Below the pieces are notes generated by a model that saw only the letters and a list, made by a program, of their open reading frames with translations, had not been told where the DNA came from and did not search any database. From assembly GCF_003014615.1 (NCBI RefSeq), contig NZ_PYGI01000021.1:26986-90985 (forward strand): a DNA stretch of 64,000 nucleotides, in the 5' to 3' direction. A program made the position numbers and the translations under genes. The stretch is from Marinobacterium halophilum (lineage in GTDB: Bacteria > Pseudomonadota > Gammaproteobacteria > Pseudomonadales > Balneatricaceae). Within the stretch, counting starts at the first letter, position 1. The number at the start of each line of letters is the position of its first letter. This document shows positions 27,857 to 47,953 of the stretch, in pieces.

Positions 27857-28621
27857 ATGGCTTCTGATCAGCAACTGACTATTCCTCCGGGGCGCGCATT
27901 GCCCCGCCATATCGCTATTATCATGGATGGCAATAACCGCTGGGCCAAAGAACGGCACCTGCCGGGCTTGGCGGGGCATAAGGCTGGCGTTAACAGCGTA
28001 CGTGCCGTCATCGAGTGCTGTGCCGAGCAGGGTGTTGAAGCGTTGACACTGTTTGCATTCAGCAGTGAAAACTGGAAACGCCCGGCTCTTGAAGTCAAGG
28101 GGTTGATGCAGCTGTTCATGCATGCACTGGAGCGTGAGGTGCGCAAGTTGGCGCGGCATAATATCCGTTTGCGGGTGGTAGGTGATCTCAGTCGATTCAG
28201 TCCAGAGCTGCAACAGCGTATCCGTGATGCTGAAGCCAAAACGGCCGAAAATACCGGTTTGGCGCTGAATATCGCGGCCAACTATGGTGGTCGTTGGGAT
28301 ATCGTACAGGCGGCGCAAAGCTTGGCCCGGCGCTGTGTCAGTGGTGAGCTGTCACCTGCGGATATCGATGAGGCGCTGTTTGCTGAACAGGTCTGCCTGG
28401 CAGACCTGCCTGCGCCGGATCTGTGTATTCGTACGGGCGGTGAGCAGCGGATCAGTAATTTCCTGATTTGGCAGTTTGCGTATGCCGAATTCTATTTTAC
28501 TGACGCGTACTGGCCTGACTTTGGTAAGGCCGAACTGCTGAGCGCGATGCAGTCCTTTCTGACCCGTGAGCGTCGTTTCGGGCGTACCAGTGAGCAGGTG
28601 GAGGCCGATCAGCGGTGTTGA
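27857..28621 (+). CDS. uppS: Undecaprenyl diphosphate synthase
   Basis: cis-Prenyltransferase that extends farnesyl diphosphate with isopentenyl diphosphate to the C55 lipid carrier for peptidoglycan and LPS. In the 254-residue product the catalytic Asp is in IIMDGNNRWA. FAFSSENWKRP and the diphosphate-binding DLCIRTGGEQRISNF follow. It uses isoprenoid precursors whose usual synthesis genes are missing from this block (see cdsA). It overlaps cdsA by 7 bases. Confidence 0.97.
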   Translation: MASDQQLTIPPGRALPRHIAIIMDGNNRWAKERHLPGLAGHKAGVNSVRAVIECCAEQGVEALTLFAFSSENWKRPALEVKGLMQLFMHALEREVRKLARHNIRLRVVGDLSRFSPELQQRIRDAEAKTAENTGLALNIAANYGGRWDIVQAAQSLARRCVSGELSPADIDEALFAEQVCLADLPAPDLCIRTGGEQRISNFLIWQFAYAEFYFTDAYWPDFGKAELLSAMQSFLTRERRFGRTSEQVEADQRC

Positions 28622-29418
28622 AACAACGAATATTGACGGCATTACTACTGGCGCCTCTGGCGCTGGCAGCGCTGTTTTTGCTGCCGCAGCAACCTTTCGA
28701 ATGGGTGGCGGCGGCAGTTTTTCTATATGGCGGTTGGGAGTGGGGTAACCTGTGCCGACTGCCGTCAGGCCTGCGGGCAGGTTATGTGTTGCTGTTGGGT
28801 GTCTTGATGGCGCTGGTTGGCTGGGCGGCACCATTACAACTGATTGTCATTGGATTTGCGCTGTTGTTCTGGCTGGCAGCATTGTTCATGGTCCGTGGTT
28901 ATCCTGCATCGGCAAGCTACTGTCAGCGTGGCATTGGCTTGCTGATGGGGGCGGTTGTGCTGGTGCCCTCCTGGTATGCAATGACCGCTCTGCGGGCTCA
29001 AGAGCAGGGTTTTGCGTTGTTGCTGATGCTGATGCTGCTGGTCTGGGGTGCGGATATAGGTGCCTACGCGGCGGGCAAGTCGTTTGGGCGCAATAAACTG
29101 CTACCGGCCGTCAGCCCCGGCAAAACTCGTGAAGGTCTGTTCGGCGGGTTGTCAGTCTGCGTGTTGGTGGGGCTGGGCTTTGCGGTATGGTTGGAACTAT
29201 CCTGGCTGCAGTCAGTCTATTTACTGGCGCTGTCAGTCCTGACCGGGCTGGTCTCGGTGCTGGGTGATCTGTTTGAAAGCATGCTCAAGCGCGAGCGTGG
29301 TATCAAGGATAGCGGCAAGCTGCTGCCGGGACATGGCGGCATTCTTGACCGCATCGACAGTTTGACAGCTGCGGCACCCGTCTTCTTTGCGGGCCTCTAT
29401 TTTCTTTACGGAGTCTAA
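28615..29418 (+). CDS. cdsA: Phosphatidate cytidylyltransferase
   Basis: Makes CDP-diacylglycerol from phosphatidic acid and CTP in the inner membrane, feeding all phospholipids. The 267-residue protein has about eight membrane segments and the CDS signature near the C-terminus: FESMLKRERGIKDSGKLLPG, then HGGILDRIDS. The start is GTG 28615 (TTG 28618 also possible), inside the end of uppS. rseP begins only 9 bases after its stop, where dxr (1-deoxy-D-xylulose-5-phosphate reductoisomerase) is found in most gammaproteobacteria. Confidence 0.96.
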   Translation: MLKQRILTALLLAPLALAALFLLPQQPFEWVAAAVFLYGGWEWGNLCRLPSGLRAGYVLLLGVLMALVGWAAPLQLIVIGFALLFWLAALFMVRGYPASASYCQRGIGLLMGAVVLVPSWYAMTALRAQEQGFALLLMLMLLVWGADIGAYAAGKSFGRNKLLPAVSPGKTREGLFGGLSVCVLVGLGFAVWLELSWLQSVYLLALSVLTGLVSVLGDLFESMLKRERGIKDSGKLLPGHGGILDRIDSLTAAAPVFFAGLYFLYGV

Positions 29419-29426
29419 CCACCCTT

Positions 29427-30785
29427 ATGCAACTGCTGCAGACCCTGTTGGCCACTCTGGTGGCGCTTGGCGTTCTGGTCACCATTCATGAGTGGGGCCA
29501 CTTCTGGGTGGCGCGTCGCTGCGGGGTCAAGGTGTTGCGTTTCTCGGTTGGTTTCGGCAAGCCGCTATGGATGCGTACCGCAGCGGACGGTACCGAATAC
29601 GCCGTGGCTGCCATTCCACTGGGTGGTTATGTGCGCATGCTGGATGAGCGCGAGGGCGATGTGCCTGAGGCGCTGCGTGGCCAGGCATTCAACAACAAGC
29701 CGGTGTTGCAGCGTATCGCTATTGTCGCTGCCGGCCCTGTGGTCAATCTTCTGTTTGCCGTGCTGGCTTACTGGTTCCTGTTCATGTCGGGCGTTAGCGT
29801 GGTGGTGCCGGTTGTTGGCGGGATCACGGCCGACTCGCCTGCAGCTCGGGCTGGTGTTGATAGCGGCTATGAAATACTGGAAGTCGATGGCCATTCGGTA
29901 CGTTCCTGGAGCGAGGTCAATCTGCGTTTGGCATCCCGGATTGGTGAAAGTGGTAGCGTCGAGCTGTTGATGGGAGAGCCTGCCCGCGGCTTCGCCCATA
30001 GCTATCAGGTTCCTATTGACGACTGGCGCGTAGACCTGGAGCGGCAATCACCTCTGGGTGCTCTGGGACTGGAGCCCTGGCGTCCTGACTTCCCCGCTGA
30101 AATCGGGCAGTTGCTGCCGGAGGGGGCTGCGGCGCGAGATGGTCTTCAGGTCGGCGACCGTGTGTTGAGTGTTGAGGGTGAGCCCGTCGCCAACTGGATG
30201 CATCTGGTTGCGCTGATTCAGCAGGCCCCGGAGAAAACGCTGCGCTTGGTGATCGACCGTGACGGTCGTGAACAGGCGATAACATTGACGCCCGCCGCAC
30301 GGACGACCGAAAAGGGCACCGTTGAAGGTTATATCGGTGTTGGTGTTGCGCCCGTCAGCCTTCCGGATGAGATGCAGCGCACCTTGAGCTATGGCCCGCT
30401 GGACGCCCTGGGAAATGGCTTTCATAAAACCGGTCAGATGATTGGTTTGACTCTGGACTCCATCGGCAAGATGATCGCCGGAGTGATCTCGGTAAAAAAC
30501 TTGAGTGGCCCGATAACCATTGCTAAAGTGGCGGGGGCTTCGGCAGCTTCAGGGTTGGAGTCGTTTATCAGTTTTCTGGCCTATCTCAGTATCAGTCTCG
30601 GCGTTCTCAATTTACTGCCGATCCCGATGCTGGATGGAGGACACCTGTTGTACTACGTTGTCGAGCTGGTGCGTGGACGCCCGGTGAGTGAGCAGGTGCA
30701 GATGTTCGGACTTAGAATTGGTATGGCCTTGCTATTCAGTTTGATGGCATTGGCGATCATTAATGACATTGTCCGCCTCTTCTGA
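29427..30785 (+). CDS. rseP: Site-2 zinc metalloprotease RseP
   Basis: Inner-membrane protease that cuts anti-sigma factor RseA (releasing sigma E) and clears signal-peptide remnants. In the 452 residues, HEWGH near residue 22 supplies two zinc ligands. Two periplasmic PDZ domains lie at about 115-200 and 215-290, and LLPIPMLDGGHLL near 400 contains the third ligand Asp. Four membrane segments are expected. ATG 29427 has weak spacing to GGAG. It precedes bamA, itself under sigma E control in relatives. Confidence 0.97.
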   Translation: MQLLQTLLATLVALGVLVTIHEWGHFWVARRCGVKVLRFSVGFGKPLWMRTAADGTEYAVAAIPLGGYVRMLDEREGDVPEALRGQAFNNKPVLQRIAIVAAGPVVNLLFAVLAYWFLFMSGVSVVVPVVGGITADSPAARAGVDSGYEILEVDGHSVRSWSEVNLRLASRIGESGSVELLMGEPARGFAHSYQVPIDDWRVDLERQSPLGALGLEPWRPDFPAEIGQLLPEGAAARDGLQVGDRVLSVEGEPVANWMHLVALIQQAPEKTLRLVIDRDGREQAITLTPAARTTEKGTVEGYIGVGVAPVSLPDEMQRTLSYGPLDALGNGFHKTGQMIGLTLDSIGKMIAGVISVKNLSGPITIAKVAGASAASGLESFISFLAYLSISLGVLNLLPIPMLDGGHLLYYVVELVRGRPVSEQVQMFGLRIGMALLFSLMALAIINDIVRLF

Positions 30786-43523: not shown

Positions 43524-46559
<3,036 letters not shown>

Positions 46560-46622: not shown

Positions 46623-46913
46623 GTGTACCGCTGGTTGCTGTTGATATTGCTGGTAATGCTGGCAGGGTTGCAATACCGGCTGTGGCTGGGTGAGGCGAAC
46701 CTGCGTCAGGTCTGGCAGCTGGAGCAGCAGATTCAGGAGCAGCAACAGCTCAATCAGCAGCTGATCGAGCGCAACAAGCGCCTTGAGGCCGAAGTGCGCA
46801 ACCTGAAACAGGGCTTCGCCGCTCTGGAAGAACGTGCCCGCAGTGAGATGGGCATGATTCGCGAGGGTGAAAGCTTCTTCCAGTTAATCGAACCCGAGCC
46901 GGAGACTCCCTGA
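46623..46913 (+). CDS. ftsB: Cell division protein FtsB
   Basis: Bitopic divisome protein acting with FtsL and FtsQ to activate septal peptidoglycan synthesis. In 96 residues: a short cytoplasmic start, one membrane helix (about 3-22), a periplasmic coiled coil (about 28-65, rich in Gln/Glu/Asn/Leu), and the conserved EERARSEMGMIREGESFFQL segment. It begins at GTG 46623 after AGAGGTGAG. truD begins 3 bases after its stop; the usual neighbours ispD and ispF are missing. Confidence 0.94.
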   Translation: MYRWLLLILLVMLAGLQYRLWLGEANLRQVWQLEQQIQEQQQLNQQLIERNKRLEAEVRNLKQGFAALEERARSEMGMIREGESFFQLIEPEPETP

Positions 46914-46915
46914 CG

Positions 46916-47953
46916 TTGAATCTAAATCTCGCCTGTAATTGGTTGTATGGCGAACCCTTATCCCGGGCTGTATTGCGTACCACACCGGATGACTTTCAGG
47001 TGTTTGAACGTTTGCCTTTCGAACCGGACGGTGAAGGGGAACATCTGTTCCTGTATATCCGCAAGACCGGTGAGAATACCGATTGGGTCGCCCGCCTGTT
47101 GGCCAATTTTTGTCAGGTCAGTCCGCGCGATGTGGGCTATGCGGGCAAGAAGGATCGGCATGCGGTTACCGAGCAATGGTTCAGTGTGCGCTTGCCGATT
47201 GGCCGTACGTTGGATTGGTCGCTGTTCGGTGGTGACACCATTGAAGTGCTGAAAACCGTACGCCATAGCCGTAAGCTCAGGCTGGGGGCGCTGTCCGGAA
47301 ACCGTTTCGTGATTCGCTTGCGTCAGGTAACGGCCGCAGATGACTTTGCTGCGCGTATTGAACAGGTGCGTCACGGCGTGCCCAATTACTTCGGCGAGCA
47401 GCGCTTCGGTATTGACGGTGGTAATCTGATCAAGGGACAGGCACTGCTGGCCGGTACCCTGCGCGAGCGTCAACGGCACAAGAAGGGACTGTATATCTCC
47501 GCATTACGTTCCTGGCTGTTTAACCAGGTTATCAGTGCTCGTATTGAGCAGGGATACTGGAGCAGTATACTGCCCGGCGATGTACTTATGCTGAACGGCA
47601 GTCAGAGCTGTTTTGTCGCCACTGAGGAGCCGGATCTGCCACAGCGGCTGGCACAGGGGGATATCCACCTGACCGGGCCCATGTGGGGCCGAGGCCAATT
47701 GATGACGCAGGCACAGGCCGAGCAGTTCGAGTCCACGACTCTGCAGCCCTGGCATGCTCTATGTGAAGGGCTGGAAGGCTTGGGGCTCAATCAGGAGCGA
47801 CGTACGCTGCGGCTGCTGCCGCTCGGGTTCAAGGCCGAGGCGGAAGGCGAAGATCAATGGCGTCTGGAGTTCGAATTGCCCGCGGGTTCATTCGCAACCA
47901 GCGTATTGCGTGAACTTTGTCAGTGGCATAACGCTGCCAACGAGCAAACATAA
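46916..47953 (+). CDS. truD: tRNA pseudouridine(13) synthase
   Basis: Makes pseudouridine 13 in tRNA-Glu. The 345-residue product has catalytic Asp in GYAGKKDRHAVTEQWFSV near residue 80, the NYFGEQRFG motif near 158, and a TRUD insertion domain in the C-terminal half. The start is TTG 46916, only two bases after ftsB; GGAG lies 11 bases upstream. No better ATG exists before the conserved PDDFQV region. Confidence 0.95.
   Translation: MNLNLACNWLYGEPLSRAVLRTTPDDFQVFERLPFEPDGEGEHLFLYIRKTGENTDWVARLLANFCQVSPRDVGYAGKKDRHAVTEQWFSVRLPIGRTLDWSLFGGDTIEVLKTVRHSRKLRLGALSGNRFVIRLRQVTAADDFAARIEQVRHGVPNYFGEQRFGIDGGNLIKGQALLAGTLRERQRHKKGLYISALRSWLFNQVISARIEQGYWSSILPGDVLMLNGSQSCFVATEEPDLPQRLAQGDIHLTGPMWGRGQLMTQAQAEQFESTTLQPWHALCEGLEGLGLNQERRTLRLLPLGFKAEAEGEDQWRLEFELPAGSFATSVLRELCQWHNAANEQT

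Follow-up and report, generated by a model that had tools for sequence, protein, structure and literature searches.

Probable replacement of the MEP pathway by a mevalonate operon in the family of Marinobacterium halophilum, with retention of a Dxs that lacks a conserved loop

Two places in the genome of Marinobacterium halophilum at which related genomes carry genes of the MEP pathway are empty, which raises the question of where the isoprenoids of this organism come from and what became of the rest of the pathway. The window analyzed here is a stretch of 64,000 nucleotides of contig NZ_PYGI01000021.1. A preliminary description of its sequence had claimed that ispD and ispF are missing from the ftsB-truD block and that dxr is missing from its usual place 17 kb away, and had taken the independent loss of three genes as a sign that the pathway was replaced. 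The gene borders were confirmed from the sequence: ftsB stops at 46913 (TGA at 46911-46913) and truD starts at 46916, and as only 2 bases separate both genes, there is no space for ispD or ispF. The dxr slot, between cdsA and rseP, is located ∼17.5 kb upstream of the ftsB/truD slot and comprises 8 bases (Table 1). The genes dxr and ispDF are gone from their own slots and no remnant is left there. The window still contains uppS, encoding an isoprenoid-using enzyme, and IPP and DMAPP are therefore still required.

Table 1. Genes flanking the emptied MEP gene slots, and uppS, in the window
Feature	Position	Strand	Description
uppS	27857..28621	+	isoprenoid-using enzyme; TIGR00055 306 bits, over cut-off
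cdsA	28615..29418	+	left flank of dxr slot; best NCBIfam model PRK11624, below cut-off; placed by tblastn gene order
dxr slot, empty	29419..29426		8 bases
rseP	29427..30785	+	right flank of dxr slot; PRK10779 492 bits, over cut-off
ftsB	46623..46913	+	left flank of ispD-ispF slot; NF002058 124.4 bits, over cut-off
ispD-ispF slot, empty	46914..46915		2 bases, ftsB stop to truD start
truD	46916..47953	+	right flank of ispD-ispF slot; TTG start; TIGR00094 185.2 bits, over cut-off

Blocks around DnaE were taken from 46 genomes and genes were placed in them by tblastn. In the MEP genomes of the order, dxr was found between cdsA and rseP in all 12 genomes with this block read (in E. coli, dxr lies between frr and uppS). 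Likewise, ispD directly followed ftsB in 12 of 12 MEP genomes with the ftsB block read, and ispF came next after ispD in 11 of these, the exception being G055. In the window's family (f1), cdsA adjoins rseP in 18 of 18 genomes in addition to the window, and ftsB adjoins truD in 17 of 18 genomes in addition to the window, with no downstream match in the remaining genome, G015. Since the slots are empty across the f1 genomes, this is more than chance or misassembly. Blocks without a usable match were left out, both upstream (G054, G109, G175, G050, G238, G313 and G267; the sole match in G109 was a 38-residue ispF-like stretch) and downstream (G246, G063, G175, G050, G238, G313, G253, G267 and G015), and G248 and G229 entered the block comparison with their downstream stretch only. 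At another position, the pyrG/eno junction (45230-45264 in the window), kdsA separates these two genes in 9 of 12 MEP blocks and in 8 of 8 blocks of the family f39, and in none of the 17 f1 blocks; it was also absent there in three MEP blocks of the family f6.

The window's genome is listed as 99.87% complete. Genome-wide searches in it yielded no match for dxr (PF02670), ispF (PF02542) or ispG (PF04551), and the sole IspD-family match in this genome was GlmU, which was identified by TIGR01173 (630 bits) and is located next to ORFs interpreted as the atp operon. When genomes were drawn evenly from the order, dxr was present in 0 of 12 f1 genomes versus 262 of 293 genomes, and ispF in 0 of 12 versus 266 of 293 genomes, where some negative genomes in the dxr, HMGS and ispF draws were assigned by elimination from the list of the draw. 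For ispG, 0 of 27 f1 genomes searched had a match versus 15 of 23 others. Assembly gaps were considered as the cause of the missing MEP genes and were rejected on the genome-wide searches for dxr, ispD, ispF and ispG.

These searches bear on whether ispD and ispF only moved elsewhere while the MEP pathway is still running. The positions of MEP genes do vary, as in G055, where ispF and ispD are on different contigs. However, neither gene was recovered elsewhere in the nearly complete window's genome, and dxr, ispF and ispG are also missing from the f1 members searched, with ispF at another site in none of the 12 relatives, which makes relocation extremely improbable. DXR-like (DRL) enzymes are able to replace dxr, and some genomes without a Dxr Pfam match keep other MEP genes, such as G066 with ispF and ispG. 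A swap of dxr only, with the remaining MEP pathway intact, is nevertheless hardly conceivable for f1, because f1 is also without ispF and ispG and the window's genome is also without ispD.

On contig C2 of the window's genome an operon was identified with the gene order HMGR-IDI2-HMGS-GHMP_A-GHMP_B-MvaD, followed by the gene for DNA polymerase II. HMG-CoA reductase (HMGR) matched PF00368 with 281 bits over 27, and scored 284 bits with TIGR00533, below the cut-off of 442 and with the first ∼68 model positions unmatched. Its solved relatives are HMG-CoA reductases, and the alignment with them covers the catalytic motifs E, K, D and H. The HMG-CoA synthase HMGS (TIGR01835, 514 bits over 360), the type 2 IPP isomerase IDI2 (TIGR02151, 358 bits over 281) and the diphosphomevalonate decarboxylase MvaD (TIGR01240, 305.7 bits over 171) were all above the respective cut-offs, and GHMP_B was assigned as mevalonate kinase (TIGR00549, 172.8 bits over 163). 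GHMP_A is a GHMP kinase that stayed below every NCBIfam cut-off (131 of 163 bits) and has mevalonate kinases as the closest solved chains; therefore, the role of phosphomevalonate kinase was given to it by elimination, and it is regarded as a candidate for this step. MvaD of the window's genome is 92% identical to that of G001. Compared with the classical bacterial mevalonate pathway (HMGS, HMGR, MVK, PMK, MvaD, IDI), one operon holds a candidate for every step here, but HMGR is of a short class-I-like form and PMK is without a family-model assignment.

HMGR (PF00368) was present in 36 of 36 f1 genomes versus 3 of 21 others, and HMGS in 12 of 12 f1 genomes of the draw, so that mevalonate genes appear on the same branch as the losses, a point that the preliminary description had named as a check. 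In addition, named genomes were scanned around the best 80 of 572 relatives of the HMGR of the window's genome, which mostly belong to Marinobacterium, Amphritea, Neptunomonas, Neptuniibacter, Nitrincola, Motiliproteus and Oceanospirillaceae. All six genes were found in the same order in 69 of these best 80 loci, and polB, encoding DNA polymerase II, came next after the operon in 60 of the 69 (in the window's genome, locus L014, positions 626-2986). The remaining 11 loci comprise eight that end at a contig end and L167, L168 and L241, which differ. In L167 and L168 (Marinobacterium lutimaris and M. mangrovicola), no MvaD follows GHMP_B within the 19-kb loci; it may sit elsewhere. L241, a record of the actinobacterium Labedella populi, has an f1-like HMGR (71%) and HMGS (62%), and the other four genes were not found in this locus. 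In L020 (G015), matches to HMGR, IDI2, HMGS and GHMP_A occur in pieces and in different frames, which may be due to assembly errors or to decay.

A mevalonate gene cluster in Marinobacterium and Candidatus Liberibacter had been noted before, in a paper of 2017 on Liberibacter (PMC5291501) whose cluster passage names jannaschii, M. litorale and M. stanieri. That passage mentions neither the emptied slots of dxr and ispDF, nor the extent over the whole family, nor Dxs. Among the open-licence papers listed by title and start of abstract, none deals with the switch in Nitrincolaceae and kin, to which f1 probably corresponds, or with the emptied slots. Thus, the Marinobacterium cluster itself was already published, and the fate of Dxs looks to be the new part.

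Combining these results, it is concluded from the gene content that in f1 the mevalonate route very probably replaced the MEP pathway: dxr, ispD, ispF and ispG were not found in the window's genome, and Dxs was kept with a conserved loop deleted. The operon would lead from acetoacetyl-CoA to IPP, in which GHMP_B would act as mevalonate kinase and GHMP_A would be the putative phosphomevalonate kinase. When IPP no longer came from the MEP pathway, dxr and ispDF could have been lost on the stem of the family. The replacement proposed in the preliminary description is hereby supported, but the independence of the three losses is not, as they are common to the family and most simply reflect one inherited event on the ancestral branch. 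Nor is the whole pathway gone, since Dxs was found in 22 of 22 f1 genomes searched. Dxs would have been kept because its product DXP is also the precursor of thiamine and pyridoxal phosphate, and in the window's genome it now likely serves vitamin synthesis only. Freed from isoprenoid duty, the enzyme would then have lost the loop, of which the function is likely control of the MEP pathway and not catalysis. Several neighboring lineages swapped an essential pathway, and the emptied slots and the stranded first enzyme remain readable. The whole f1 family is predicted to be insensitive to Dxr inhibitors.

The replacement was also observed in other lineages of the order. In f39, 10 of 11 drawn genomes are without dxr and ispF and have HMGR, while the eleventh, G248, kept dxr, ispF and ispG, with ispD-ispF at the slot. 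In the ten switched f39 genomes, the cdsA/rseP slot was empty in the 6 blocks read and the ftsB/truD slot in the 8 read. In G304, the only f39 locus scanned (L154), the operon is unlike that of f1: a single protein of 754 residues combines a class II HMGR with a mevalonate kinase (TIGR00532, 385 bits, and TIGR00549, 252 bits, each above its cut-off), and genes for a PMK-like kinase, MvaD and IDI1 lie next to it. The HMGR frames of the other nine f39 genomes have 752-995 residues. HMGS was not identified in f39 by Pfam, nor in any of the 11 genomes by HMGS alignment; leucine breakdown is a candidate source of HMG-CoA in this family. Dxs was absent or limited to weak, transketolase-looking matches in 9 of 11 f39 genomes, and vitamins must therefore come by other means there. 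Teredinibacter turnerae (G238 and G313) is without dxr and ispG and has an unfused version of the reductase and kinase together with HMGS; an IspF-family match is kept (E ∼1e-29, over cut-off). G253, from f6, is without dxr, ispF and ispG and contains the f1-type operon, which nests among f1 operons together with those of Parendozoicomonas and a MAG (support 1.0) and was probably acquired by transfer.

In a midpoint-rooted tree of eight concatenated proteins, f1, f39 and G253 were placed apart with MEP lineages in between, indicating that the replacement is recurrent. T. turnerae and G248 are among nine genomes that were left out of this tree because fewer than three proteins were available for each. 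The 15-taxon core of f1 had a support of 1.0, while the group of all 19 f1 members had only 0.70. Two further sets of genomes were considered as switched and rejected: G272 and G133 have HMGS, but kept dxr, ispF and ispG (HMGS of G133 sits among genes that read as polyketide-like), and G036, G038 and G047 have HMGR without HMGS and kept dxr and ispF.

The Dxs of the window's genome matched TIGR00204 with 758 bits over 466. In f1 Dxs the N-terminal domain is matched in two parts (roughly 1-193 and 225-274), and the missing piece corresponds to a conserved stretch of ∼29 to 38 residues that lies between ISxNVGG and LFEELGF. With fixed anchors on either side, the loop measures 64-65 residues in 5 MEP genomes from the order and 26-35 in 13 f1 genomes; G253 has 35, T. 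turnerae (G238) 52 and G267 from f39 57. The segments of T. turnerae and G267 look like low-complexity linkers; the N-terminal domain of the latter has the full span (274) and only the motif and some loop length were lost. The comparison set consisted of 25 Dxs (the 5 from MEP genomes, the 19 lower-scoring of the best-scoring class-wide matches listed, and G395), of which 23 are from genomes with a dxr match and two, G353 and G395, from genomes without. When measured over a slightly wider interval, the segment of every one of the 25 comparison Dxs has 68-69 residues. A motif EE..KG is present in 24 of 25 and a motif R..KK in 21 of 25 comparison Dxs, versus 0 of 16 Dxs from mevalonate genomes for either motif. 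The Dxs domain spans 269-274 residues in 148 rows among the best-scoring class-wide matches listed, two G564 rows being left out and full-length domains being favored by the restriction to best scores. Spans of 234-243 residues were obtained for nine f1 genomes and G253; T. turnerae has 260 and G267 has 274.

The same distribution was found among Dxs homologs. EE..KG was present in 0 of 117 f1-like and 0 of 15 T. turnerae-like sequences, and in 101 of 104 other relatives of the T. turnerae Dxs, the exceptions being P0256, P0257 and P0316. A looser R..KK occurred in 1 of 117, 0 of 15 and 83 of 104, respectively; four homologs, three f1-like and one other, are outside these counts. The relatives with EE..KG include T. 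waterburyi, T. haidensis, T. purpureus and Microbulbifer celer, and dxr and ispF are present in the latter (G175). In a test on scores only, covering 369 genomes of the class, a Dxs N-terminal domain was called weak when its E was weaker than 1e-105. By this measure, 3 of the 10 genomes that have Dxs but no dxr carry a weak Dxs, and so do 13 of the 278 that have dxr. Eight of these 13 are in assemblies of at least 250 contigs and G323, G341, G381, G466 and G577 are not, so exceptions to the link between loop and pathway may exist. Seven genomes without a dxr match had strong Dxs scores; therefore, the absence of dxr alone is no proof of a switch. Among the open-licence papers listed, none deals with loss of the Dxs loop together with mevalonate use. 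By word search, the T. turnerae genome paper contains neither mevalonate, isoprene words, deoxyxylulose nor hopanoids, and PMC13370337 does not name these groups.

In a Dxs tree calculated without the loop columns, T. turnerae was nested within the Dxs of Teredinibacter and Cellvibrionaceae (100) and G267 was paired with the loop-bearing G248 (100). Based on these placements, f1, f39 and Teredinibacter lost the loop separately. The Dxs of G253 clustered with those of two f1 genomes (81% UFBoot), and transfer may explain its loop state. The f1 Dxs did not form one clade, but the branches in question were weakly supported (48-53). The loop state could in principle be a lineage marker without a link to the switch, resulting from one ancestral deletion that was spread by descent or by transfer of dxs together with the operon. 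Within f1 one ancestral loss is enough, and the position of G253 in both the Dxs tree and the operon tree makes a joint transfer possible, but, provided that the Dxs tree is right, the loss is found in at least three lineages, with those of T. turnerae and G267 separate from that of f1, and this explanation is regarded as quite unlikely.

The same segment was removed on purpose in published DXPS constructs. According to PMC10504544 and the preprint PMC13082120, six or seven glycines take its place in the DXPS of P. aeruginosa, K. pneumoniae, M. tuberculosis and E. coli. The kinetics of the P. aeruginosa enzyme were comparable in its native and truncated forms, and deletion of the loop (198-240) lowered kcat of E. 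coli DXPS 1.5-fold. The loop is described as poorly conserved by the authors of PMC10504544. The segment deleted in the crystal constructs 8a29, 8a8y and 7a9h (206-245 or 207-245 in P. aeruginosa) is the one absent from f1 Dxs, and 8a29 is the best PDB match of the Dxs of the window's genome, aligned straight through the cut. Whereas the loop removal in the crystal constructs is engineered, it is the natural state in f1 Dxs, alongside the loss of MEP genes. Because truncated DXPS is near-normal, catalysis is no explanation for conservation of the loop. For the same reason, that the loop is dispensable for catalysis in these constructs, f1 Dxs are still counted in the TIGR00204 family.

A loop-less form is also represented by NF008968 (the PRK12315 Dxs subfamily, 582 positions). 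This model gave a single continuous alignment with each of the 3 f1 Dxs tested, with no net gap for the window's genome and G001, and likewise with the Dxs of G253, T. turnerae and G267, while with Dxs of MEP genomes the best stretch ended at the loop in 4 of 4. Since NF008968 aligns through loop-less Dxs, this form has already been modelled. The taxa of NF008968 are presumably lactic acid bacteria that use mevalonate. The f1 Dxs are not members of NF008968, as they are below its cut-off (453.5 of 510 bits for the window's genome) and far over that of TIGR00204, and the loop-less form common to both groups may be a convergence.

Concerning the reason for the loss, relaxed selection only, i.e. 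neutral decay of a segment without a pathway-specific role, is a substantial possibility, somewhat short of an even chance. Activity of truncated P. aeruginosa, K. pneumoniae and E. coli DXPS in vitro, as reported in PMC10504544 and PMC13082120, is in line with this, as are the segments of T. turnerae and G267, which turned into what look like low-complexity linkers, as decay would give. On the other hand, the constant segment length in the comparison Dxs and the motif in nearly all of these and of the T. turnerae relatives argue that the segment does something where it is present. Likely, this is a control role that is needed only while Dxs feeds isoprenoids. IPP and DMAPP are feedback inhibitors of Dxs and DXP is used for thiamine and pyridoxal, according to PMC13001223. 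With isoprenoids fed by mevalonate, Dxs would be left to supply DXP for these vitamins, and the loop would then be lost, either because it no longer had a use or because IPP made from mevalonate would inhibit Dxs and so starve vitamin synthesis.

In its specific form, the proposal is tentative and considered possible rather than probable: the loop would be an MEP control element that lets IPP/DMAPP or MEP partners restrain Dxs and that is discarded at each switch, as vitamins B1 and B6 would otherwise be starved, and the loop state would be a one-gene fossil showing whether a given Dxs still feeds isoprenoids. According to the preprint PMC13082120, a recent inhibitor occupies a site next to this loop and the other subunit. 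That one segment was lost repeatedly in these lineages points to a possible site of MEP regulation, which would be relevant to antibiotic design and terpene engineering, and structures from loop-deleted DXPS may miss a physiological control site. The proposal predicts that the owners of P0256, P0257 and P0316 use mevalonate. These three Dxs are close to that of T. turnerae and without the loop motif, and one of them is from Alteromonadaceae bacterium 2753L.S.0a.02.
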